From Ilumatobacteraceae bacterium (GTDB taxonomy: Bacteria > Actinomycetota > Acidimicrobiia > Acidimicrobiales > Ilumatobacteraceae): a stretch of 64,000 bases of DNA. The DNA lies in NCBI GenBank assembly GCA_021299715.1, contig JAJTEL010000001.1, positions 65,397 through 129,396 of the forward strand, given 5' to 3'. Shown piece after piece: positions 3,811-29,807 of this stretch (position 1 is its first letter; every line of letters begins with the position of its first letter). A model generated the notes under the pieces. It did not search any database. It was not told the origin of the DNA and saw nothing but the letters and a program-made list of their open reading frames with translations. The position numbers and the translations under genes were made by a program.

Positions 3811-6350
<2,540 letters not shown>

Positions 6351-6420
6351 GGCTCCATTCTCGCCCAAGATGGCCCTCGATACACCTCTCCAAGCGTCAC
6401 ACGCTAGGTTCTCAGGGGTC

Positions 6421-8502
6421 ATGCGAGACCCAGAGAACATGCCCGGCACCGTCCTTGGTGGGCGCTACCAGCTCGACCAGTTGAGGCCCGAAGCCCAATC
6501 CATGTCGGGTGCCATGTTGTTTGACGCCACCGACCTGTCTTCGCAAGCCGAGGTCTCTGTCCGAGTGGTGCCTGTGGAGCGTCTAATTGACCCCACGCTT
6601 GGGTCCACCACGGCAGCCGATGCCCAAGAAGCATTCGAGCGCCAAATAGATGTTGCGTCCAGCTTGCGCCACCCATGCATCGAGGCCGTTATTGACCATG
6701 GCGATGCAATTTTGGACGGAGAGAAGTACGTCTATTCAGTTGGTGAGCGACTGGGCGGTGGCTCATTGCGTGAGTTCCTCGACCGTGGCCGCCGACTCAC
6801 TCCCTCCCAAGCGCTCATCGTTGGTGTTGACATCTGTCGTGCGTTAGACGCCGCCGCTAAGCAGGGCATCACCCATGGCGACCTTCGCCCATCGCGTTTG
6901 GTCTTCGGTCTCGATCGCCGCGTTCGTCTCGTTGGTTTTGGTGCGCCACTTCGTCCGCTCGATTCCCTGGGTCTCGAGCAAGCAACATACGCAGCACCAG
7001 AGTTAGCCGAGGGTGGAGCGCGCGGCGCATCGTCCGATGTGTATTCGCTGTCCCTCATCCTTATTGAAGCAATGACAGGTGACGTGCCGTTTGCTGGCGA
7101 CACGGTGGCAGCATGTTTCGCAAATCGTTCAGGCAAGTTGCTCCCCGTGAGTGCCGACTTTGGTGCGCTTGCGCAAGTGCTTGAACGCGCTGGTCGTCCC
7201 GACGCGACAGAACGTTTCTCGCCACGCGAAATGGGAACAGCGTTAGTGCAAGCAGCAGAATCAATGGCGCGACCAACTCCAATCGATGTTGTTGGTGGCG
7301 GTTTGTTCGATGAAGCAATTGCCGAACACGTTTCACCACCAGCGACTGCAGAGCCTGCAGAACTTGAACCAATTCAAAACGTTGCGCCGAATGAACCAAT
7401 TCTCATTCGCACCACACCGAAGACAGACACCACTGGCCCCATTGCAGTGTCACCAATTATTGATCCCACCGATCCAACGGGAACTCCACTCACTATCGGC
7501 GGTGATGACACCGGGCCTATCGCTCTCGATGCTGATTCATTGCGCGAACTTGCGGCAGAAGATCCAACAACACAAGTGGTGCGACCCAAGAAACGCTGGG
7601 GGCGTCGCATTGGAATTCTGGCGCTTGTCATTGTGCTGCTCGCTGGTGGCGGAACTGGTGCGTATTTCACTGTTTTGAACCCGAAGAATCCGGTTCCTCA
7701 ACTCATCGGACTTACCGAAGCAGAGGCGCGCAATCAAGTGTCGCAATTTGGTTGGGGAGTCAACATTGTGAAGGAGCGCAGTGACGAAGTTGCTGCTGGC
7801 CAAGTCATTCGCACAGACCCAGTTCTTGGTGCAAACCTGGCCAAGCGTGACACGCTCACCATGGTGGTCTCTGAAGGGCCAACATTGTCAGTACTGACTG
7901 AACTCACAGGTCTTACCGCCGACGCAGCGAAAGCAAAATTGGTTGAGTTAGGTCTACAAGCTGCGCAGGCTGACGTGCCTGACGAGACAGTTCCAGTTGG
8001 TGTTGTTATCTCGTGGAGTATTCCCGATCAACCAACGCTGAAGACAGGCGACTCTGTTGTGAAGGGAACATCTGTTGCGGTCAATGTGTCCAGCGGTCCC
8101 GCACTTCGTGATGTGCCCAACCTTGTCAACATGACCGTTGCCGAAGCCACGGCAAAACTCACGGAAATGGGTCTTCTTGTTGTTGAAGGTCCGCAAGCTG
8201 GCCACCCAGAAATTGCCGCAGGCAAGATTTCTGTTCAGGTACCTGCAGCCGGCGAAAAGCTCGCTCGTGGTGGCACAGTCACCATCACGGTGTCGAAGGG
8301 GCAAATCACCACCCTCATTCCCACCATCTACGGAAAAGACTTCGCCACTGTGAAGCAACGCCTGGAAGGTGCCGGAATGGTTGTTGGCAAGGTGACGGGC
8401 AACAAGAATCGCGGCCTGAAGTCTGCGTCTATCGACGGAAAAGTTGTGCGTAACTACACACGCGTCGTTGTCGGTAAGACAGTCGACCTCACATTCCCCT
8501 AA
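6421..8502 (+). CDS. PASTA-domain transmembrane protein with degenerate kinase domain (pseudokinase)
   Basis: The 693-residue protein is built like PknB/StkP: kinase fold at about 10-285, an acidic Pro/Thr-rich linker, one membrane segment at about 396-419 and three clear PASTA repeats plus a divergent fourth to the C-terminus. PASTA repeats bind peptidoglycan or lipid II outside the cell. The kinase domain has lost key residues. No glycine loop is visible, the VAIK lysine is R48, the HRD segment reads HGDLRPSR (D154 kept, N replaced by R159) and DFG reads GFG (G172). The APE motif is kept (192-194). It is probably a non-catalytic scaffold or sensor. A start at 6421 is preferred over 6256, which would overlap the divergent gene; TAGGTT lies 10 bases upstream. 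Confidence 0.88.
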   Translation: MRDPENMPGTVLGGRYQLDQLRPEAQSMSGAMLFDATDLSSQAEVSVRVVPVERLIDPTLGSTTAADAQEAFERQIDVASSLRHPCIEAVIDHGDAILDGEKYVYSVGERLGGGSLREFLDRGRRLTPSQALIVGVDICRALDAAAKQGITHGDLRPSRLVFGLDRRVRLVGFGAPLRPLDSLGLEQATYAAPELAEGGARGASSDVYSLSLILIEAMTGDVPFAGDTVAACFANRSGKLLPVSADFGALAQVLERAGRPDATERFSPREMGTALVQAAESMARPTPIDVVGGGLFDEAIAEHVSPPATAEPAELEPIQNVAPNEPILIRTTPKTDTTGPIAVSPIIDPTDPTGTPLTIGGDDTGPIALDADSLRELAAEDPTTQVVRPKKRWGRRIGILALVIVLLAGGGTGAYFTVLNPKNPVPQLIGLTEAEARNQVSQFGWGVNIVKERSDEVAAGQVIRTDPVLGANLAKRDTLTMVVSEGPTLSVLTELTGLTADAAKAKLVELGLQAAQADVPDETVPVGVVISWSIPDQPTLKTGDSVVKGTSVAVNVSSGPALRDVPNLVNMTVAEATAKLTEMGLLVVEGPQAGHPEIAAGKISVQVPAAGEKLARGGTVTITVSKGQITTLIPTIYGKDFATVKQRLEGAGMVVGKVTGNKNRGLKSASIDGKVVRNYTRVVVGKTVDLTFP

Positions 8503-19571: not shown

Positions 19572-22500
19572 ATGGCGATGAAGGTTGGCTTTGTACAAAA
19601 TCTTGCTGACGTTGTCAATCCCGTTGAGCGCTACCTCAATGATGGGTTGAATCCAGACAATCCATTCGAACGGCAAGTTCTGCTCGTGCCATTAATCGGG
19701 GTTCGTTCGTGGCTTACTCCAATCCTCGCAACCCGCCTTGGCGCAACCAACGAACATGGCGATGGCGTTCTCGCCAACGTTGATGTGCAGTACATCGGTT
19801 ATCTGCAAACGTTGGTTCAGGCGGTGTCCGGAATTGCCGAAGATCCCTGGGAAATCAATCGCGTGGCCTTTGCTACTTTCCAGGCTCTCGGAACATTCCC
19901 CACCGCTCGCACCCTCGAGTCGAAGTACAACGGTCGACTCAATGCAGCACGACGCATTGCCGAACGATTTGAAAACTATGCCGCTCGACGTCCCGACCTC
20001 ATTCAGTCGTGGGACCGCAACGTAATTGCACTTGGCGATCTCACACGAGAGAAGTACGAATGGCAGTATCAATTGTGGCGAGAGGTGAGAGGCATTATTA
20101 ACCAGCCTCCGTGGCCAGTTGTTAATGCTGAAGTCTGTTCGCAATGGAGGTCAGGGGTTTCGCACCCAAGCCTTCCATCGCGATTAATGCTTGTCGGATT
20201 TGAAAGTATCTCTGCAGCTCATCTTGAACTTCTTGACGCGCTCAGCAATGTAATTGACATTGAGATTCTTTTTGTCCAACAATCACCTGAACTGGCGCAT
20301 CGGTGGTCAAAACTTTCTGAAGAAGTAGTTTCACACCGCAACGAGTTACCCATCGTTTCGTCTTTTGATTTTGAAGCCGTCCATGAATGGCGACTACCCA
20401 CGTCGTGGATGCGCGGATCGTTTGAGCTTGAGTTACTACTTTCGGCATACGGCCTTCCGGTTCAGCACCAACCAAGTACGCAACTCATAACCAACGAATC
20501 GTTCACGCTGCTGCAACGCATTCAACATGGTGTTGCTTTCCTCAAGAACACGTCGACCGAATCGTCAGTTTCAGATTTCTCCGTACAAATTCATCGCGCC
20601 CACGCCTTAACCCGTCAAGTCGAAGTCATACACGACGCACTTCTTCACGCCTTCGAAGATCTTCCCAATCTCGAACCACACGAGGTTGTCATTCTTTGTG
20701 CCGATATGGCTACGGCAGCACCAATCCTTGAGGCTGTTTTCGAGAAGACTGTCAAAAATAGCTCTGGAAAAGATGTGAAGATTCCGTTGAGCGTTGCCGA
20801 CCGATCGCTTGGCGAACTGAGTGCTGGTGCCGAACTTGCTACCGCACTTTTGGCGCTCATTTCTTCAAAGTTCGATTTGGAACATTTCCTTAACGTGGCA
20901 ACACACCCCCTGGTAGCAAAGAATTTTCGGGCGACTACGTCCGATGTGGCTGTGTGGGTGCGTCACCTTGAACAATCCCGTCTTCGTTGGGGTCTCGATT
21001 CTGAACATCGGACGAATCACCATCTGCAGTCACCCACATTGACCACGCATACGTGGCTTGAATCAATTGAACGTTCACTGCTTGGCGCAGTGATGGATGT
21101 GACCGAGGCCCCTTTGGTGACTTCGGGTGGGGTTCGGCCTCTCCCATTTATCGATTCCTCCGAGACCGAGGCGCTTGTCTCGCTAGCCGGAATTCTTTCG
21201 CCGCTCGTGAAGCTTGAGTTGTCTAGCCGTACTGCTTCATCGGTTCAGAACTGGTGTGAAGAATTAAACGAGTGTTTCAGTGTGCTGTGTGGTGAATCTG
21301 CGGCTGATCTCGACGAGATGTATTTTTTGATTGACAGCGTCCAGAAAGCCGCAGCTGAAGTTGAGGAGAAGCTTGGAACTCCTCTAGCGGGGGTTTCGTT
21401 TGCACAGTTCGCCGAACACATTCGATCTGGTGTTATTGCTGCATCAGGACGGCAGCCACTACGCACTGGCGCCGTTACTGCCGCCTCATTTGCGCCACTA
21501 AGAATGATTCCGTATCGAGTGGTGTGTGTGCTTGGCTTCGACGACGAAACACTTCCAAAACCCGAAGCCGAAGGTGATGACCTTGTTGCGGCAATTCCAA
21601 TGTTGGGCGATACCGACCCACGTCTTGAGACACGTCGAGCATTTCTTGACGCGATAATGGCAACATCAGACAGATTCATAGTCACCTGTAATGGTCGAAG
21701 CATTAAGAACAACAAGAAAGTTCCTCTTGTTACTCCTCTCGCCGAGTTCATCGACTTCTGTCAAGAGTTCGGAGTAACCGTTTCTGAAAAAGACGAGATG
21801 AGTTCCATCGAACATTCACATTGGCGCCATCTTGGAAGTCCCGGAAACTTTCTTCCTGGGAAAAAACCAGTCAAGGGTGTTGTGTGGTCACATGATTCCA
21901 CGGCACTGCGTACCGCTCAAGCACGGCACTCCGACGCAAAGACACATGACGATGGCACCGATGGCAGCCATCAGGTCAACCTTGCGCCTTCCCTCAATTC
22001 GATTTCATCTCGTGACATCGAGACATTGCTTCTCGACCCATTGTCGTACTACCTCGAAAAGGGTTTGCGCATACGAAATGAGTGGGAGAGCAACCAACAG
22101 GGAATCAGTCTTCCGTTAGTTGCCGACCAGTGGAAGCTTGGTCAAATTTGCCTCGATGTATTCGACGGTAAGTATCCAATCTCCGACCTTGAGAGCCAGT
22201 TAAGAGCCGCCGATGTTTTGCAAGTTGCACCGTACGACAAAGCCGAGATAGAGAACACAATTAAATTGGTAGGGAAGTTTGTTGAGTCGTACACGGGACT
22301 GCTCCCATCTCAACCTAAGACGCTCACTGTCGCTCTTGACCTTGACGGTCTTCCACAAATAGTGGGCGACATTGCTCGGTATCACTCTGCAGAAGCCATG
22401 CTCGCACATGTTTCTTTTCAAAGTTCTTCATCCGTGGTGAATAGAGATGCCGCGCGCATGTTTGTTCGCGCGTTAATAGCTATTGCCGCCGGCCACTCGG

Positions 22501-22910
22501 TACAGGCTGTCACCATGTTCCACATTGCTCCGAAAGGAGATAAGGCCATACAGCGCACAATCACAATTAGTCCTGCCATCACCACGAATGTGGCACAAGA
22601 AATTCTGTCGTCACTAGTTCGCGTAGAGCCAATTGCGCGCACACTTGGGTGTCCTCAATTCGGCGAGACGGCGTTCAAATTGTTCGGTGGGGCCAAACCG
22701 AACCGGTCAGATGCCGAGGATTCGTTCGAGGAATTTGTCGAAAACGATCGTGTATATCCGAGATCTAAAGAACTGGTGGTGTTCGGAGTTCAGCCTGACT
22801 TTGACGATGTGTATGCAGACTCAAGCGGGTTATTGAAAACTTTCTTCGCGGCGTACTTCTCAGTGCACGCACGGTTCGGGGGATCGCTCAAAGGATGGAC
22901 GGTGCAATGA
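19572..22910 (+). CDS. recC: Exodeoxyribonuclease V, RecC subunit
   Basis: The 1112-residue protein matches RecC: an N-terminal helicase-like fold without working ATPase motifs (LLVPLIGVRSWL, FERQVLLVP) and a C-terminal inactive nuclease-like domain. Features such as YRVVCVLGFDDETLPKP and DIETLLLDPLSYYLEKGL are typical. RecC recognises Chi and splits the DNA strands in RecBCD. GGGGTAGGAGGTGCG precedes the ATG, and a small ACCCC/GGGGT hairpin (19546-19558) overlaps it. It is first in the recC-recB-recD unit, all overlapping. Confidence 0.93.
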   Translation: MAMKVGFVQNLADVVNPVERYLNDGLNPDNPFERQVLLVPLIGVRSWLTPILATRLGATNEHGDGVLANVDVQYIGYLQTLVQAVSGIAEDPWEINRVAFATFQALGTFPTARTLESKYNGRLNAARRIAERFENYAARRPDLIQSWDRNVIALGDLTREKYEWQYQLWREVRGIINQPPWPVVNAEVCSQWRSGVSHPSLPSRLMLVGFESISAAHLELLDALSNVIDIEILFVQQSPELAHRWSKLSEEVVSHRNELPIVSSFDFEAVHEWRLPTSWMRGSFELELLLSAYGLPVQHQPSTQLITNESFTLLQRIQHGVAFLKNTSTESSVSDFSVQIHRAHALTRQVEVIHDALLHAFEDLPNLEPHEVVILCADMATAAPILEAVFEKTVKNSSGKDVKIPLSVADRSLGELSAGAELATALLALISSKFDLEHFLNVATHPLVAKNFRATTSDVAVWVRHLEQSRLRWGLDSEHRTNHHLQSPTLTTHTWLESIERSLLGAVMDVTEAPLVTSGGVRPLPFIDSSETEALVSLAGILSPLVKLELSSRTASSVQNWCEELNECFSVLCGESAADLDEMYFLIDSVQKAAAEVEEKLGTPLAGVSFAQFAEHIRSGVIAASGRQPLRTGAVTAASFAPLRMIPYRVVCVLGFDDETLPKPEAEGDDLVAAIPMLGDTDPRLETRRAFLDAIMATSDRFIVTCNGRSIKNNKKVPLVTPLAEFIDFCQEFGVTVSEKDEMSSIEHSHWRHLGSPGNFLPGKKPVKGVVWSHDSTALRTAQARHSDAKTHDDGTDGSHQVNLAPSLNSISSRDIETLLLDPLSYYLEKGLRIRNEWESNQQGISLPLVADQWKLGQICLDVFDGKYPISDLESQLRAADVLQVAPYDKAEIENTIKLVGKFVESYTGLLPSQPKTLTVALDLDGLPQIVGDIARYHSAEAMLAHVSFQSSSSVVNRDAARMFVRALIAIAAGHSVQAVTMFHIAPKGDKAIQRTITISPAITTNVAQEILSSLVRVEPIARTLGCPQFGETAFKLFGGAKPNRSDAEDSFEEFVENDRVYPRSKELVVFGVQPDFDDVYADSSGLLKTFFAAYFSVHARFGGSLKGWTVQ

Positions 22911-25900
22911 TGAGTGTTCAACCCAATGAATTCAAAGTCGATGACCCGTCAATCTTTAACGGTTTGGTTGTAGAAGCCAGCGCCGGAAGTGGCAAAACGT
23001 TCTCTGTTGCCGGAATGGTCACCTTGCAGCTTGCACTTCGCGAAGATTTACGCGTCGCAGACATTCTTGTTACGACATTCACAAGAAATGCGGCAGCTGA
23101 ACTTCGTGATCGAATTCGGCGCCAATTGGTGTCGCTCGAGAAGGCGCTCCGACTTAATTCTGTTAAAGCAGATGATGCAGTCGGACAGGTGCTTCTTTCG
23201 GGTGACCGCCTCACATATGCAGGTCGACTCGACCGAGCAATTCGTGAATTCGATACGGCAACCATTGCAACGATGCACTCTGTGTGTTCCAAAGTTTTAG
23301 CTATGGCTGGGCTTGTAGTAGCAGGTGAAGGGCGATCTGGCGTCGAAATCGATGAGTTAATAGCTTCAGAAGTCAACTCCGCAATTATCTCTCATTTCTC
23401 TGCGAGCGAATTGTCAAAAGTTGCCAATATTGAACAGTTTCAAAAGCGACTCTTGAGTGTTGTTAAGGAAGTTTTGCGATCGCCTCAATCGTTATTGACT
23501 GCCGATGGCCTACTCGATGAATCAGGTGACTCTTCCGCAACAACCACTGGACGAAAAGCCCGGTACATCATCAACCTCGTTGCGACACGAGTTAAGCAAC
23601 TCACTCGAGATGAACCCACTTTCGACGATCTGCTGGTTCGAACGGCTGAGTTGTTAGGTCCAAAAGGTGACGCAGCTGTAGCAGAGGCTTTTCGTTCACG
23701 TTTTAAGTTGGCTGTTATCGATGAAGCGCAGGACACAAACGAACTGCAGTGGGATATTTTCCGTTCGGTTTTTAGAGCGGATGAAACCTCTCGCACCTTG
23801 GTCGCTGTCGGCGATCCCAAGCAAGCCATTTACCGCTTTCGCGGTGCTGATGTGGAGGCCTATTTAGCTCAGCGCGACCCTGCCAAGGTGCGAACACTCA
23901 CTCGCAACTGGCGAAGTGATGCTCGATTAGTTCGCGCATTGAACTGCGTCTTCAGTGGCAAGAGTTTTGGCGTTGGTATTAATTACCCGCCAGTTGTGGC
24001 ACGAGATGGTGCTCCAGAGAGCAGCATAAGCAAGTTTCCTTCATTGGCGATTCTAAAAGTAGGTGAACAGACCAACGCGCGGTCTGTTGTTTCACCAGCT
24101 GCTCGGCGAGTCCGCCAATTGCTTGAAGAACTTCGTATCACCGATGGCGACAAAGACCGCGAGGTTCGACCCGAAGATATTTGTGTTCTCGTACGCAGTC
24201 GTGCAAGCGGTCGCCGAATTGAGTCCGCCCTTCGCGCCATGAACGTGCCGGCGGTGAGTTCAGGCACGGAAAGTGTGATGAATGGTGCCATGGCTAGTGA
24301 TCTACGTCGTGTTCTCAAGGCTATTTCTCAGTTAGGTGATGAATCATCGGCCCGTCTGGCCGCGGCCACAGTGTTTCTCGGAGCTGAACTTTCAGAAGTT
24401 GGATCAATCTCTGATGAGAATCTTCAAGCAATAAATCAAAAGCTCTTTGATTGGTCGGGAGTATTGCGACGAAAAGGAATTAGTGCGCTTGCTTTCGAAT
24501 TTCGCAAAGACGCCGAAGTCATGAACCGAATTGTCTCAGGCCGAGATGGTGAACGACGCGAAACCGATTTGGCTCACCTCGTTGAACTACTTCATGTTGA
24601 AACCAACGGAAAAGGGTGTACGGCAGAAGATGTTGTTGCGGCTTTTGACATGTTGGCTGAAGTGGATGCAATGGCTGAAACGGTGAGTAGACGCGTCGAA
24701 AGCGATCGTGATGCAGTGCAAATAATGACTGTTCACTCTGCAAAGGGCCTTGAATTTCCTGTGGTGGTTGTTGCCGACCTCTGGAAATTGAACAAGCCTG
24801 CAAGTTCTACGTCGGCGCCTAGTTTTCACACTGAAGTCGACCATGAAGGTGTAGTAAAGAAACGCCGCTTGGTCGATGTCAACTGGGTTCATGGCGATGC
24901 CGATAAGTCAATTGTGGCAAGTGCAAAAGATGAACTCAATGACGAAGAAAAGCGTCTTTTTTACGTCGCAATGACGCGTGCCAAGCACCACGTCTCTCTG
25001 GTGCACGCCGTTGCAAAGGAAGTTGAAGACGGAAAGAAGCAGAGTGATTTTCGTGTGACTTCAGAGCTTTTGAATGACGTCTCTGTTGAAAAAGATACGT
25101 CCTGCATCAAAGTTCTTAATTACACCAACCCACCTGTGTTTCCCGATTACACCATGCCCGATGTAGACACAGAGAACAACATGCTCGCGGTTGCTCCGTT
25201 AACTCGACAAGTAACCCAAACGTATAAGCGTCTATCTTTCTCCGGAATCACTAAACATCATCGTGGTCAATCGCTCTCACCAATAGATACACGTGAATCA
25301 ACTGGTGGCGGTGATGGTGACGACGACCAAATTATTACAATTCAGTCGGGTTATGCCGATGTGAGTCTCGACTTAGGCGTAGACCACATGCCGCTTGCGC
25401 GCCTACGGGGTGGAACCTACTTCGGCAAGGTCATGCACAAGGTGTATGAACTCATCGATGTCTCATCATCTGACTTGCCGGCAGAGGTTGCTTCCGTGGT
25501 GAAGAAAACAGTTATCGGATCAATGGCGCAACATCGAGACGAAATCGTGGAAGGCGTCCTTTTGTCATTGCAAACTCCGCTCGGAGGTCCGCTTGGCAAC
25601 GTGTGTCTTGCCGATATCCCAACTGCCGATCGACTTGCAGAGATGAGTTTCGAAATGGGTCTAGCGGGCTCCAGCGCGCAAGTAAGCGTTGCCGATCTTG
25701 GTGCATTAACGGCATCTCTTTTGCGCGAGGCAGGTCGAGGTGACGACATCTTGTTGCCGTACTTTGACGGACTGGCTCAGTCATTTAAAACTCAACTTGT
25801 TGGGTTAATGAACGGATCAATAGATGCGCTGCTCAGAGTTCCACGCGCAGATCAATATCAATATTTCATTACGGACTACAAAACAAACCGGCTAGACCGC

Positions 25901-26203
25901 GAAGGCGTTTCCGCCGTCATAGATGGTTACGAACGTGAGTCCATGTGCACGGAGATGATTCATCACGATTATCCACTTCAAGCCTTGATCTACGGAATCA
26001 GCGTGTATCGGTTTCTTCGTTGGGCCCAGCCTTCTATTGACCCAGATGATGCCATTGCCGGTCTTGCATATTTCTTTGTTCGTGGCATGGTGGGAGATTC
26101 CACACCATTAGTTGGGCAGCATCGTCACGGTGTTTTCACATGGGAAGCACCAAAGGGACTTTGGTCTGCAGCGTCAGATTTGTTTTCGGGGGTCAAGTCG
26201 TGA
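22907..26203 (+). CDS. recB: Exodeoxyribonuclease V, RecB subunit (helicase-nuclease)
   Basis: The protein of about 1098 residues is a UvrD-type 3'-5' helicase with a C-terminal nuclease. It has Walker A EASAGSGKT, FTRNAAAELRDRI, Walker B DEAQDTNELQWD, GDPKQAIYRFRGAD and MTVHSAKGLEFPVV. The nuclease motifs are complete: the histidine in GKVMHKVYE, the aspartate in GSIDALLR and the ITDYKTN signature. The ATG at 22907 overlaps the recC stop (ATGA); ATGs at 22895 and 22910 are alternatives. With RecC and RecD it resects double-strand breaks. Confidence 0.94.
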   Translation: MMSVQPNEFKVDDPSIFNGLVVEASAGSGKTFSVAGMVTLQLALREDLRVADILVTTFTRNAAAELRDRIRRQLVSLEKALRLNSVKADDAVGQVLLSGDRLTYAGRLDRAIREFDTATIATMHSVCSKVLAMAGLVVAGEGRSGVEIDELIASEVNSAIISHFSASELSKVANIEQFQKRLLSVVKEVLRSPQSLLTADGLLDESGDSSATTTGRKARYIINLVATRVKQLTRDEPTFDDLLVRTAELLGPKGDAAVAEAFRSRFKLAVIDEAQDTNELQWDIFRSVFRADETSRTLVAVGDPKQAIYRFRGADVEAYLAQRDPAKVRTLTRNWRSDARLVRALNCVFSGKSFGVGINYPPVVARDGAPESSISKFPSLAILKVGEQTNARSVVSPAARRVRQLLEELRITDGDKDREVRPEDICVLVRSRASGRRIESALRAMNVPAVSSGTESVMNGAMASDLRRVLKAISQLGDESSARLAAATVFLGAELSEVGSISDENLQAINQKLFDWSGVLRRKGISALAFEFRKDAEVMNRIVSGRDGERRETDLAHLVELLHVETNGKGCTAEDVVAAFDMLAEVDAMAETVSRRVESDRDAVQIMTVHSAKGLEFPVVVVADLWKLNKPASSTSAPSFHTEVDHEGVVKKRRLVDVNWVHGDADKSIVASAKDELNDEEKRLFYVAMTRAKHHVSLVHAVAKEVEDGKKQSDFRVTSELLNDVSVEKDTSCIKVLNYTNPPVFPDYTMPDVDTENNMLAVAPLTRQVTQTYKRLSFSGITKHHRGQSLSPIDTRESTGGGDGDDDQIITIQSGYADVSLDLGVDHMPLARLRGGTYFGKVMHKVYELIDVSSSDLPAEVASVVKKTVIGSMAQHRDEIVEGVLLSLQTPLGGPLGNVCLADIPTADRLAEMSFEMGLAGSSAQVSVADLGALTASLLREAGRGDDILLPYFDGLAQSFKTQLVGLMNGSIDALLRVPRADQYQYFITDYKTNRLDREGVSAVIDGYERESMCTEMIHHDYPLQALIYGISVYRFLRWAQPSIDPDDAIAGLAYFFVRGMVGDSTPLVGQHRHGVFTWEAPKGLWSAASDLFSGVKS

Positions 26204-27945
26204 GACGCGCTCATGTTTCCATTGCCGTGCCAACGTCACTAATCGCGCTCGTTGAGAAGAATCTTCTCCCAAGAGATCAGGTTGTTGCCGCCAACATCAT
26301 CATGAACGCGTATTCAGTATCGGCTGAAGAGCATCCATGGGTGTGTGCAGCCGTAGCGGTCGTTTTGTCTAATCCCGACTCTGGTCATTCGTGTGTGACT
26401 CTCGAGATGCTCGCATCGTTGCCCGACGTCCGCGACGTCGCCGACGATTCATGGCCGAAACAAGTCGATTTCTGGCGCGATGAACTAGCGAAAGCACCGA
26501 CTCTCGTCTGCGTAACGGGCGAGTCGAACGATATGCCCTTCGTTCTAGACGATGGGGACATGCTCTACTCTGCGAAGTCTCGATCAGAAGAAGTTTTTGT
26601 GGCGGCGAAACTGTCGCGAATGATGGCAGAGCAAAGACTGCAGGTCATCACGGGTGGACCCGGAACCGGTAAGACCACATCTATTGCAAAGCGCTTGGTG
26701 AAACGAATGAATGATCCCAAGTCTTCAAACGACACATATGCGTTGGCTGCACCAACGGGGCTAGCAGCAAAACGAATGAAGTTTGCGCTGGCTACTGCAC
26801 TACATAGTGATCATTTGGGGGAGCCCATCACCGACGAGATAGTTGCTCGCATTATGGAGATTCCCAAGAGCACGGTCCATCGGCTACTTAAGTTCAACCC
26901 ATCGTTGCGACGCCAATGGGGGCGTCATGCCCAGAAGACTCTCGAATACAACTACGTCATCATCGATGAGGTGTCAATGATGCCGCTCTCAATGATGGCG
27001 CGACTTTTAGAAGCGCTCGACGATGACACCACACTTGTATTGGTGGGCGATAAAGACCAACTTGCCAGCGTTGACTCTGGCAGCGTGCTTGCCGACATCT
27101 GTAAGGCATCGGATATGGGTGCGAATTTTGTTGAGCCTTTGGAACGACAGTTCCGATTCACGGCCGACTCACCTGTTGGGCAGTTGAGCAAGGCCATCAA
27201 CAGTGGCGATGTACCTGGGCTTCACGCCGTTTTGTCATCCGACTACGGAAACATAACCGATTCTGACAATCAGGAAGTTCCACGGTTTCGTTGGATTAAT
27301 CCCGAAACCAACAAAACTGGCTTATCAGTTGTTGCGCGTGAGGCCATTAGTCACGCTCGTGAACTTTGCATTATGGCATCCGAAGCCTCAAGTGATGACC
27401 ACATGAAAAAGTTGCTTGAATTCCGAGACACGTTTCAAGTTGTCTGTGCGAATCGTCGTGGAGATTTGGGTGTATCGGGATGGAACTCAACGGTAGATCG
27501 TGAACTAGGCAATCTTGCTCGTGGCCAGTGGTATATCGGCCGACCCGTCATTGTTCTTACGAACGACTATGTCAATAACTTGTCAAATGGTGACGTGGGT
27601 ATTGTCTGCGCCGACGAAGATGATCAACGATTCGTAGTTTTTGACGGAGAAAATGGAATACGAAGAATTCCCGTATCAAAACTGCCGCCCGTCGCTACTG
27701 TTCATGCACTTACTATCCACAAAAGTCAGGGAAGCGAGTACGGCCATACGGTCGTCTTGTTGTCTACCAAATTGTCACGAATTGTTACTCGTGAACTCGT
27801 CTACACCGGAATCACGCGCACAAAGACTCGTTTGACTCTTGTCGCAACTGAGGCAGTGCTTGAAAATGCGGTCAACACGCCAATCCGTCGAGCCACTGGT
27901 CTTGCTCACCGTTTAAATCTCCTCCTGAAAGGATCACACCGCTAA
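26200..27945 (+). CDS. recD: Exodeoxyribonuclease V, RecD subunit (5'-3' helicase)
   Basis: The 581-residue SF1B helicase has Walker A TGGPGTGKTT, Walker B IIDEVSMM, GDKDQLASVDSG, and C-terminal motifs VHALTIHKSQGSEY and VYTGITRTKTRL. The GTG at 26200 overlaps the recB stop (GTGA), which I prefer to an ATG at 26140 lying inside recB. It is the fast motor of the RecBCD complex. The stop overlaps a possible ATG of the following secreted-protein gene (TAATG). Confidence 0.93.
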   Translation: MRRAHVSIAVPTSLIALVEKNLLPRDQVVAANIIMNAYSVSAEEHPWVCAAVAVVLSNPDSGHSCVTLEMLASLPDVRDVADDSWPKQVDFWRDELAKAPTLVCVTGESNDMPFVLDDGDMLYSAKSRSEEVFVAAKLSRMMAEQRLQVITGGPGTGKTTSIAKRLVKRMNDPKSSNDTYALAAPTGLAAKRMKFALATALHSDHLGEPITDEIVARIMEIPKSTVHRLLKFNPSLRRQWGRHAQKTLEYNYVIIDEVSMMPLSMMARLLEALDDDTTLVLVGDKDQLASVDSGSVLADICKASDMGANFVEPLERQFRFTADSPVGQLSKAINSGDVPGLHAVLSSDYGNITDSDNQEVPRFRWINPETNKTGLSVVAREAISHARELCIMASEASSDDHMKKLLEFRDTFQVVCANRRGDLGVSGWNSTVDRELGNLARGQWYIGRPVIVLTNDYVNNLSNGDVGIVCADEDDQRFVVFDGENGIRRIPVSKLPPVATVHALTIHKSQGSEYGHTVVLLSTKLSRIVTRELVYTGITRTKTRLTLVATEAVLENAVNTPIRRATGLAHRLNLLLKGSHR

Positions 27946-27986
27946 TGGCCACTTGTCATGCTGGGTCACGGCATAGGGTCATATAC

Positions 27987-29807
27987 GTGAAAAAGGTTTT
28001 TGCATTAATCGTTGCTCTTGCAACCATCGGGCTTCTTTCAGCCAATCCTGTTTTGTCGGCCGAGGTGGAAGACGAACAGATTCCAACTGCGTTCAATTCG
28101 GCGGCTGGTTTTCACGGGTTTGAGTTGGATGAGGTATCTGGCTTGCGTAACAACGTCAGTGTCTTAATGACAGAGACGTCAGCAGGAACACGATTGTGTA
28201 CCAGCGCCACAGCGGCCCCATGTGATGGTGAGGGCGGATACAACTTCAAAGCAGTGCTCGGGCCATGCACGCAAGCTGTCACTGTCGACTGCATTGAGTC
28301 AGTGACTACCGTGTCGTCTCCAGGGGTATCAACTGCCGGAGTCTTCAAAGAATATTTCCCAGCTTCTGCCCCGAATGCATTCACAGGATCTCCTAGCGAA
28401 GGAGTGCCAAGCGGGAAGAGTCCAAGTTTGTGGACATTTGCAAACTTGCCCCATGCATTTGGAAGTGACTACCAGGTCACCGTTGAAGTGACGGGAATGA
28501 AAAAGAACGGCGATGCGTTGAAGCCGTTGCGTTCATTCTTCGCAAACATCACCCCCGTCAGCATGTACCAAACGACATGTGACCCGCAGTACAACGGAAC
28601 ATGTATTGACGATTATGTCGAAGAGACAACGAATGGGAGAACCCGGGTGGGCTTCCGTGGTGCCGCTGCTGATCAAGACGGAGGGTTCCGTTGTCACAAC
28701 TGGGGCGAGAATGCAAAGTGCGCTTTGAAACATGCTTTTCCACCTAACGCACGTTTCGCTATCAAGGTTCGGCTGTCGACAACGCCAACAGGCTGGTTGC
28801 ACGGGCGCATGAAAGATCCGAAAGCGAACATCACACGCACAGACAATGTCACGACGGTGTCAATTGAGGCAGACCCTGTGAAGGTGCCAACAGTGTCTAC
28901 TGGGGCGCAATGGGGATTGATTCCGGCCCCTGTTCAGCAGTGGTTTACCGACAACTGCCCCAAGTCGTGCGGGACTCGCACGCCAGGAAGTTTGTCAAAC
29001 CCTCCTGCCACTCGAAACGCGTTGTCGACTCCAACAGCTTTCTCTGAAGCAGGATTCGCACAGTTGCAGTTATGGAAAGACTTTATTCAAGATAAGGCCA
29101 CATCAATTCCCTCAGTGTGGAATGTCCGAACATTGAGTTACGGAGAAATGGTCAAGGCTCCGAAATGCATCAGCGACGGAAGTGGAGTGACTGGAATAGT
29201 TGCAACGAATGCAACTTTGTATGCAGAAGGCCCACCTACGTTTGATACCGCAACGTCTTCTCTGAATTACAAAGTTGCATCACCTCATTTTGAGAAAAAC
29301 GGGACAACTGAGTTCAAGGGAACCTACGACCTGGTTCTTCGATCTGATATTGCGAAGTGTCTATATGGTTTCGATGACGCCACGTCGACGTCAAAAGTTG
29401 AAGTAACGGCGGAGAATGGTTCTGCACAGTCAGTGGTGTCATCCATGTCTGTTGCAGATGGCTGGTTCAAGTTTGCTGCATCAGGGTTTACTTTCTCTGC
29501 CCCCACGGTGAAGGTCACCTTGATCAAGCCAACTCCAGCATTCAGTGTCCCAACATTGAAAAAAGGAAGAACACGATCGGTGGCATCAGTCGCTAAGGCG
29601 TACGGCCTGGCTGTTCCCTCCGGTGCAAAAGTGACCGTGTCGGTCTCTGTTCGCTCTAAGAAGGTATGCACGGTGATTAATCACCGAACAATTCGCGCCT
29701 TGGCAAAAGGGTCGTGCGTAATGAAGGTGTCTGTAAAACCTAAAGCCACAGCGAAAATTAAAAAGCCAAAGACTCAGTCGAAGACAGTTACAGTCAAGAT
29801 TTCTTAA
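27987..29807 (+). CDS. Secreted protein with C-terminal Ig-like Cys-pair domain, unknown function
   Basis: The 606-residue exported protein has a signal peptide (VKKVFALIVALATIGLL, cleavage probably after VLSA). A long middle region with many cysteine pairs follows. The C-terminal domain of about 90 residues (from PAFSVPTLKKGRT) contains VCTV...ALAKGSCVMKVSVKP and ends in a Lys-rich tail. A similar end is found in the secreted protein at 37814-38911. GTG at 27987 is preferred: it gives a proper signal peptide and lies 7 bases after TAGGGT (27974-27979). An ATG at 27945, overlapping the recD stop, would add 14 residues. Confidence 0.75.
   Translation: MKKVFALIVALATIGLLSANPVLSAEVEDEQIPTAFNSAAGFHGFELDEVSGLRNNVSVLMTETSAGTRLCTSATAAPCDGEGGYNFKAVLGPCTQAVTVDCIESVTTVSSPGVSTAGVFKEYFPASAPNAFTGSPSEGVPSGKSPSLWTFANLPHAFGSDYQVTVEVTGMKKNGDALKPLRSFFANITPVSMYQTTCDPQYNGTCIDDYVEETTNGRTRVGFRGAAADQDGGFRCHNWGENAKCALKHAFPPNARFAIKVRLSTTPTGWLHGRMKDPKANITRTDNVTTVSIEADPVKVPTVSTGAQWGLIPAPVQQWFTDNCPKSCGTRTPGSLSNPPATRNALSTPTAFSEAGFAQLQLWKDFIQDKATSIPSVWNVRTLSYGEMVKAPKCISDGSGVTGIVATNATLYAEGPPTFDTATSSLNYKVASPHFEKNGTTEFKGTYDLVLRSDIAKCLYGFDDATSTSKVEVTAENGSAQSVVSSMSVADGWFKFAASGFTFSAPTVKVTLIKPTPAFSVPTLKKGRTRSVASVAKAYGLAVPSGAKVTVSVSVRSKKVCTVINHRTIRALAKGSCVMKVSVKPKATAKIKKPKTQSKTVTVKIS

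Follow-up and report, generated by a model that had tools for sequence, protein, structure and literature searches.

Gene layout and neighbours at the ligA-linked locus

In the 64,000-nucleotide stretch of Ilumatobacteraceae DNA analysed here (the window), a gene on the forward strand (6421..8502; P0001) encodes a PASTA pseudokinase of 693 residues, as identified from its open reading frame, translation and Pfam matches; by inspection of the sequence, the start codon is the ATG at 6421, with AGGGG immediately 5' of it. A kinase fold (the pseudokinase domain, residues 12-285, 6454..7275, delimited with AlphaFold2 and PDB matches) is followed by a juxtamembrane linker with TGPI motifs (7276..7611; DTTGPI and DDTGPI, from a motif count), a transmembrane helix (residues about 398-420, 7612..7680; a hydrophobic stretch placed by eye in the translation) and PASTA repeats (residues 424-693, 7690..8499; Pfam PASTA, outer limits set by eye). 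The PknB-type layout given in a preliminary description of this DNA was thus right, coordinates included. In Pfam, PASTA scored 102.8 bits over four stretches of the 693-residue protein, and the Pkinase match (53.2 bits; the other kinase match of the window genome reached 170.8 bits) starts at profile position 41, beyond the glycine loop, in agreement with the description of that loop as unrecognisable. The protein scored 243.6 bits against NF033483 (PknB/Stk1) and hence stayed below the cut-off of 450, while PknB of the sister species scored 600.8 bits. The structural comparison with PknB that had been proposed gave a confident PknB-like fold for residues 12-285 (AlphaFold2; pLDDT 92.0, pTM 0.90), with PknB and PknA of Mycobacterium tuberculosis as the closest PDB structures.

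Divergently from this gene, the reverse strand encodes a membrane protein, here called UP (5871..6350), whose single N-terminal helix is combined with an ectodomain of CopC-like Ig fold. UP has 159 residues, its uncertain start (GTG at 6350) being adopted from homologs; the predicted structure (AlphaFold2; pLDDT 88.7, pTM 0.71) matched CopC weakly in Foldseek (best E 4.2e-5), and no match to UP was found in Pfam above cut-off or in NCBIfam, with an unconvincing best PDB sequence match (E 0.24). The 70-bp gap between the divergent starts (6351..6420) is, from its coordinates, a possible shared regulatory region. The syntenic neighbour further on is ligA (3814..5874, forward strand; Pfam), encoding NAD-dependent DNA ligase. 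Within Ilumatobacteraceae (f1), the GTDB family of the window genome, for which aquatic habitats are suggested, UP was present in 88 of 90 loci, the two others (L059 and L064) being cut by contig ends, and ligA in 76. Outside f1, UP was near the kinase in 21 of 38 loci chosen irrespective of UP, two of them as weak hits of 14-15 bits. Also, UP occurred without the kinase in L288, L289 and five of the first twenty loci (L237, L241, L243, L245 and L252), so the link between UP and the receptor is possibly just positional, and UP may act independently of it. In L241, which belongs to a streamlined genome of about 1.1 Mb (family f29), UP lies beside ligA, and the stretch yielded no PASTA kinase.

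Elsewhere in the window, 19572-26200 holds a RecC-like gene (Exonuc_V_gamma, RecC_C) adjoining a UvrD-type helicase gene, which form a RecBC-like pair, and 27945-29804 is an open reading frame of 620 residues with no Pfam match at 1e-5. We also noticed that the pseudokinase gene occurs, at 74% identity or less, in public metagenome-assembled genomes whose records name Bifidobacterium breve or Ferrithrix thermotolerans in the title (L129, L130, L144, L157, L194 and others); these titles look wrong.

Catalytic residues and descent of the gene

As for the catalytic residues, the alignments place R48 (6562..6564) at the site of the beta-3 Lys, Q75 (6643..6645) at that of the alpha-C Glu and R159 at that of the Asn in the catalytic loop HGDLRPSR (6874..6897), where D154 is retained; GFG with G172 stands in place of DFG (6934..6942), and E186-Q187 (6976..6981) occupy the site of the P+1 loop Gly-Thr (all on the forward strand). 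With HMMER, R48 and G172 align to the K and D of PknB from M. tuberculosis; with MAFFT, R48, R159 and G172 align to K, N and D of an intact kinase from the same genome. The three substitutions named in the preliminary description are hence confirmed, and the losses at Q75 and E186-Q187 are added to them, the HRD Asp (D154) being the sole survivor among K, E, D, N, D and the P+1 Gly-Thr. Given that the same set R-D-R-G was found in all seven aligned rows of the genus, it reflects more than chance or a sequencing error. By its predicted fold and missing catalytic motifs, the protein fits the definition of a pseudokinase, and we infer, with good support from the alignments, that its kinase domain is non-catalytic, as had been claimed.

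This degenerate state extends over the family. All 101 sampled f1 genomes matched the protein at E 0.001; the best match was weak and maybe another kinase in six (G003, G044, G052, G061, G073 and G095), five more (G013, G037, G054, G067 and G078) were left out of the alignment, and the alignment comprised 90 rows, the window included, with all 27 sampled genera represented. At least one of K, D, N and D (the beta-3 Lys, HRD Asp, Asn and DFG Asp) was gone in 86 of the 90 rows: K was lost or missing in 47 (one of which is truncated), the HRD Asp in 33, the Asn in 68 and the DFG Asp in 35. All four residues were retained in four rows (L074, L076, L079 and L094), which have DVG where DFG is expected and might keep weak activity. 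The P+1 Gly-Thr was found in no row, and the Thr alone in two. The lost residues differ from genus to genus, and no conserved replacement active site was found among the f1 rows. In terms of conservation among relatives, therefore, degeneration is family-wide, whereas the exact substitutions are fixed in the genus and not across the family, which suggests that selection acts on the fold and on particular surfaces rather than on any one substituted site.

In the class Acidimicrobiia, 133 of 296 genomes gave a match to a pseudokinase profile at E 1e-58; outside f1, 53 orthologs were examined, 15 through loci selected by UP and 38 through the kinase match. PASTA was detected in 52 of them, the exception (L290) being cut by a contig end; ligA was close by in 45 and either ligA or UP in 52. 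K, D, N and D were complete in 48 orthologs, and 45 of these also had the P+1 Thr; the degenerate ones were L259, L260, L261 and L265 (f4), L251 and L273 (f14), L234 (f8) and, through the P+1 Thr alone, L242 (f8). A quick tree was then built from 102 kinase domains, those of 39 of the 90 f1 rows, the 53 outside orthologs and 10 of 50 PknBs, after removal of the catalytic columns and with SH-aLRT support but no bootstrap. The f1 rows formed one clade (SH-aLRT 99) amid orthologs that are mostly intact, and PknB fell outside (100); support for the forks right beneath the f1 clade was only about 85 to 91, and L234 and L265 sat on long branches. The degenerate f4 rows were placed apart from f1, whereas the AU test did not reject a joint clade (p 0.128) and likewise one including f14 and L234 (p 0.086). 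The minimum number of changes on this tree was five for K/D/N/D, five for Gly-Thr, six for Thr alone and four for K/D/N/D plus Thr. It is therefore likely that the catalytic losses in f4, f14 and f8 were independent of that in f1, while a joint origin is compatible with the AU test.

On sequence grounds, then, the gene in the window is orthologous to a second PASTA kinase, linked to ligA and distinct from PknB. The domain layout had been likened to that of the essential PknB-type kinases; descent from PknB does not hold: PknB lies outside the orthologs on the quick tree, and 45 of the 53 orthologs examined in other families are intact.

Canonical PknB, selection and the linker

K, the alpha-C E, D, N, D and the P+1 T were all present in the alignment of 50 PknB loci (20 in f1 and 30 outside), so the catalytic loss is specific to the ligA-linked paralog. 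Each of 40 f1 genomes searched gave at least two kinase matches, that is, at least one kinase besides the pseudokinase. At least six PASTA matches, which fit two PASTA proteins, were found in 37 of the 40; the other three (G000, G002 and G013), with only three or four PASTA matches, gave no sign of a second one. In the sister species (G082), genes for FhaA, an FHA protein, PP2C, RodA/FtsW, a penicillin-binding protein (PbpA) and the intact PASTA kinase PknB form one cluster, and a thiolase gene is found at a distance of one gene (about 1.4 kb). This cluster was not found in the genome of the window, whose assembly is 92.8% complete and whose contig C12 ends within the thiolase gene, about 1.6 kb short of the place of PknB; the absence of PknB from the assembly is, judging from that contig end, probably due to a contig break. 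Of the active PASTA kinase and FHA proteins for which a search had been proposed, both were thus found in relatives, and the genome of the window contains one FHA protein, at another place, but no visible PknB.

Contig C12 of G000 also carries an intact kinase (L036:10935-12608; VAVK, HRDIKPGN and DFG) that has a membrane helix and, as judged by eye, a discoidin-like tail (Pfam had no hit there), followed by a SigM-like sigma factor gene and a TrxB-like gene, as read from translations. In mycobacteria, MviN with its pseudokinase sits before the SigM/TrxB genes, and the L036 kinase may be the active counterpart of the MviN pseudokinase domain. A role swap with this SigM-locus kinase, prompted by the missing PASTA kinase, was rejected; given that C12 ends in the PknB-adjacent thiolase gene, a contig gap is the simpler reading.

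Selection on the protein was estimated from one usable pair, the window and L123 (95% identity), since synonymous sites were saturated or nearly so with L007, L126, L127, L132, L133 and L145. dN/dS was 0.016 for the kinase domain (dS 0.96), 0.025 for PASTA and 0.111 for the linker; in this one usable pair, the dead kinase domain is under purifying selection. Conservation was scored on the same 39 f1 rows as in the tree, picked by hand for genus spread. H152, P193, E194, D206 and R265, which are structural residues, were invariant, while R122, R124, P242, V243 and A245, and likewise S129, C139, E255 and R259, were invariant or nearly so in f1 and variable in the outside orthologs. The f1-fixed residues fall, as assigned from the alignment, in the alpha-D/alpha-E and alpha-G/alpha-H (post-alpha-G) regions; that the G-helix takes part in protein contacts is noted in the accessible part of a review on bacterial pseudokinases (PMC12599244).

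The linker motif [DE]xTGx[IVLM] occurred in 40 of 84 f1 linkers, compared with a mean of 1.5 and a maximum of 6 in 200 shuffles, and in 2 of 52 outside orthologs and 0 of 48 PknBs; the motif was first noticed by eye in the sequences that were counted, and related rows are not independent. It is spread over 12 of 24 f1 genera, and a different acidic Thr motif was found in the linkers of the outside orthologs (27 of 52 vs a shuffled mean of 3.3). FHA domains favour phosphothreonine with a hydrophobic residue at +3, and this preference, together with the enrichment, makes it plausible that the linker is a phospho-scaffold.

A probable non-catalytic receptor and its relation to known systems

The PknB fold, the family-wide degeneration and the active PASTA kinase and FHA proteins in relatives make a pseudokinase receptor working through binding, as first suggested, the best reading, and the protein probably signals through a partner, as yet a presumed one, rather than by phosphorylation. 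As a whole, we rather favour a single-pass, non-catalytic receptor with partner docking and recruitment of FHA proteins by a phosphorylated linker. The ancestor would have been the second PASTA kinase beside ligA, in which catalysis was lost at or near the base of f1, since the P+1 Gly-Thr is gone in all 90 rows; afterwards, the genera would have lost different catalytic residues, and the residues in alpha-D/alpha-E and alpha-G/alpha-H would have become fixed. Outside the cell, the PASTA repeats are expected from the domain to bind cell-wall material as in PknB; inside, the dead kinase fold would be a docking platform without phosphorylation. A wall signal would lead to pairing with active PknB, the linker threonines would then be phosphorylated, and FHA proteins, for instance FhaA or FhaB, would be recruited to the wall-synthesis machinery, with the divergent UP possibly joining as a partner. 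Only tentatively would we extend this to a class of PASTA pseudokinase receptors, in which, of two PASTA kinases inherited by Acidimicrobiia, the ligA-linked one became non-catalytic in f1 and, separately on the tree, in f4 and f14/f8, to serve as a phospho-scaffold written by PknB and read by FHA proteins with UP as the outer partner.

A possible but rather doubtful alternative is an allosteric partner without phosphorylation or FHA, namely, a protein that switches PknB or another kinase on or off as a heterodimer or titrates the PASTA ligand; the further kinase match or matches in each of the 40 f1 genomes, the intact look of the 50 examined PknB loci and the conserved C-lobe surfaces would all be consistent with it, but the enriched linker Thr motif is left unexplained. 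Alternatively, the kinase fold might be an inert anchor of a structural, wall-anchoring protein that functions through the PASTA ectodomain and UP, as the conserved divergent UP with its predicted Ig-like domain would allow; this is unlikely, however, because the kinase domain has family-fixed residues and is constrained at least as strongly as PASTA in the one pair (0.016 vs 0.025). An unconventional kinase or other transferase with a rearranged site, which could draw on the HRD Asp kept here and in 57 of the 90 rows and on the ATP binding argued from models for DYD pseudokinases in the accessible part of the review (PMC12599244), is very improbable: the beta-3 Lys, alpha-C Glu, Asn and DFG Asp are all lost, the glycine loop is unrecognisable, the P+1 Gly-Thr is present in 0 of 90 rows, and substitutions differing from genus to genus are unexpected for a new active site. 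A decaying pseudogene, for which the piecemeal loss of catalytic residues might speak, is hardly credible, as there is no internal stop among the matches listed, dN/dS of 0.016 counts against decay for the genus of the window, and the aligned rows span all 27 sampled genera with conserved neighbours.

PASTA kinases are much-studied wall sensors of bacteria, and it matters to what extent their function depends on catalysis. In many families the gene beside ligA codes for an intact kinase, in f1 for a dead yet strongly selected one; the non-catalytic receptor would be a natural experiment, in which comparison of intact and dead orthologs could point to the surfaces that carry non-catalytic signalling.

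In terms of known systems, the protein shares with PknB/Stk1 (NF033483) the kinase fold, linker, single membrane helix and PASTA repeats but differs in the lost catalytic residues, the locus and the score below cut-off. Seven annotated families are covered by the accessible part of the pseudokinase review, where PASTA is named in the reference list only (PMC12599244); no description of a PASTA pseudokinase in this group was recognised among listings of the open-access PMC literature, which is weak evidence of absence. ActPs2, with the HRD Asp changed to Asn, a DFG deletion and large insertions (PMC12599244, same part), differs from the protein in the window, which has D154, GFG and no 250-residue insertion in the activation loop. 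A deletion in that loop is typical of ActPs3; in the comparison with the outside orthologs, the loop of the protein in the window came out shorter by a few residues. DYD pseudokinases (PMC12599244, same part) are likewise membrane-associated, with a beta-3 Arg and no alpha-C Glu, but keep the catalytic-loop Asn and a DYD motif, where the protein has R159 and GFG. The mycobacterial MviN (MurJ) pseudokinase of family ActPs3, whose phosphorylated tail recruits FhaA (PMC12599244, same part), is similarly actinobacterial and membrane-linked; the protein in the window, however, is not fused to MurJ, which is a separate 527-residue protein in its genome, carries PASTA repeats and descends from a PASTA kinase, so the comparison with MviN in the preliminary description stands as an analogy and not as membership. 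If the proposed reading is true, PASTA pseudokinase receptors would be the PASTA-bearing counterpart of the role that the MviN pseudokinase plays in mycobacteria.
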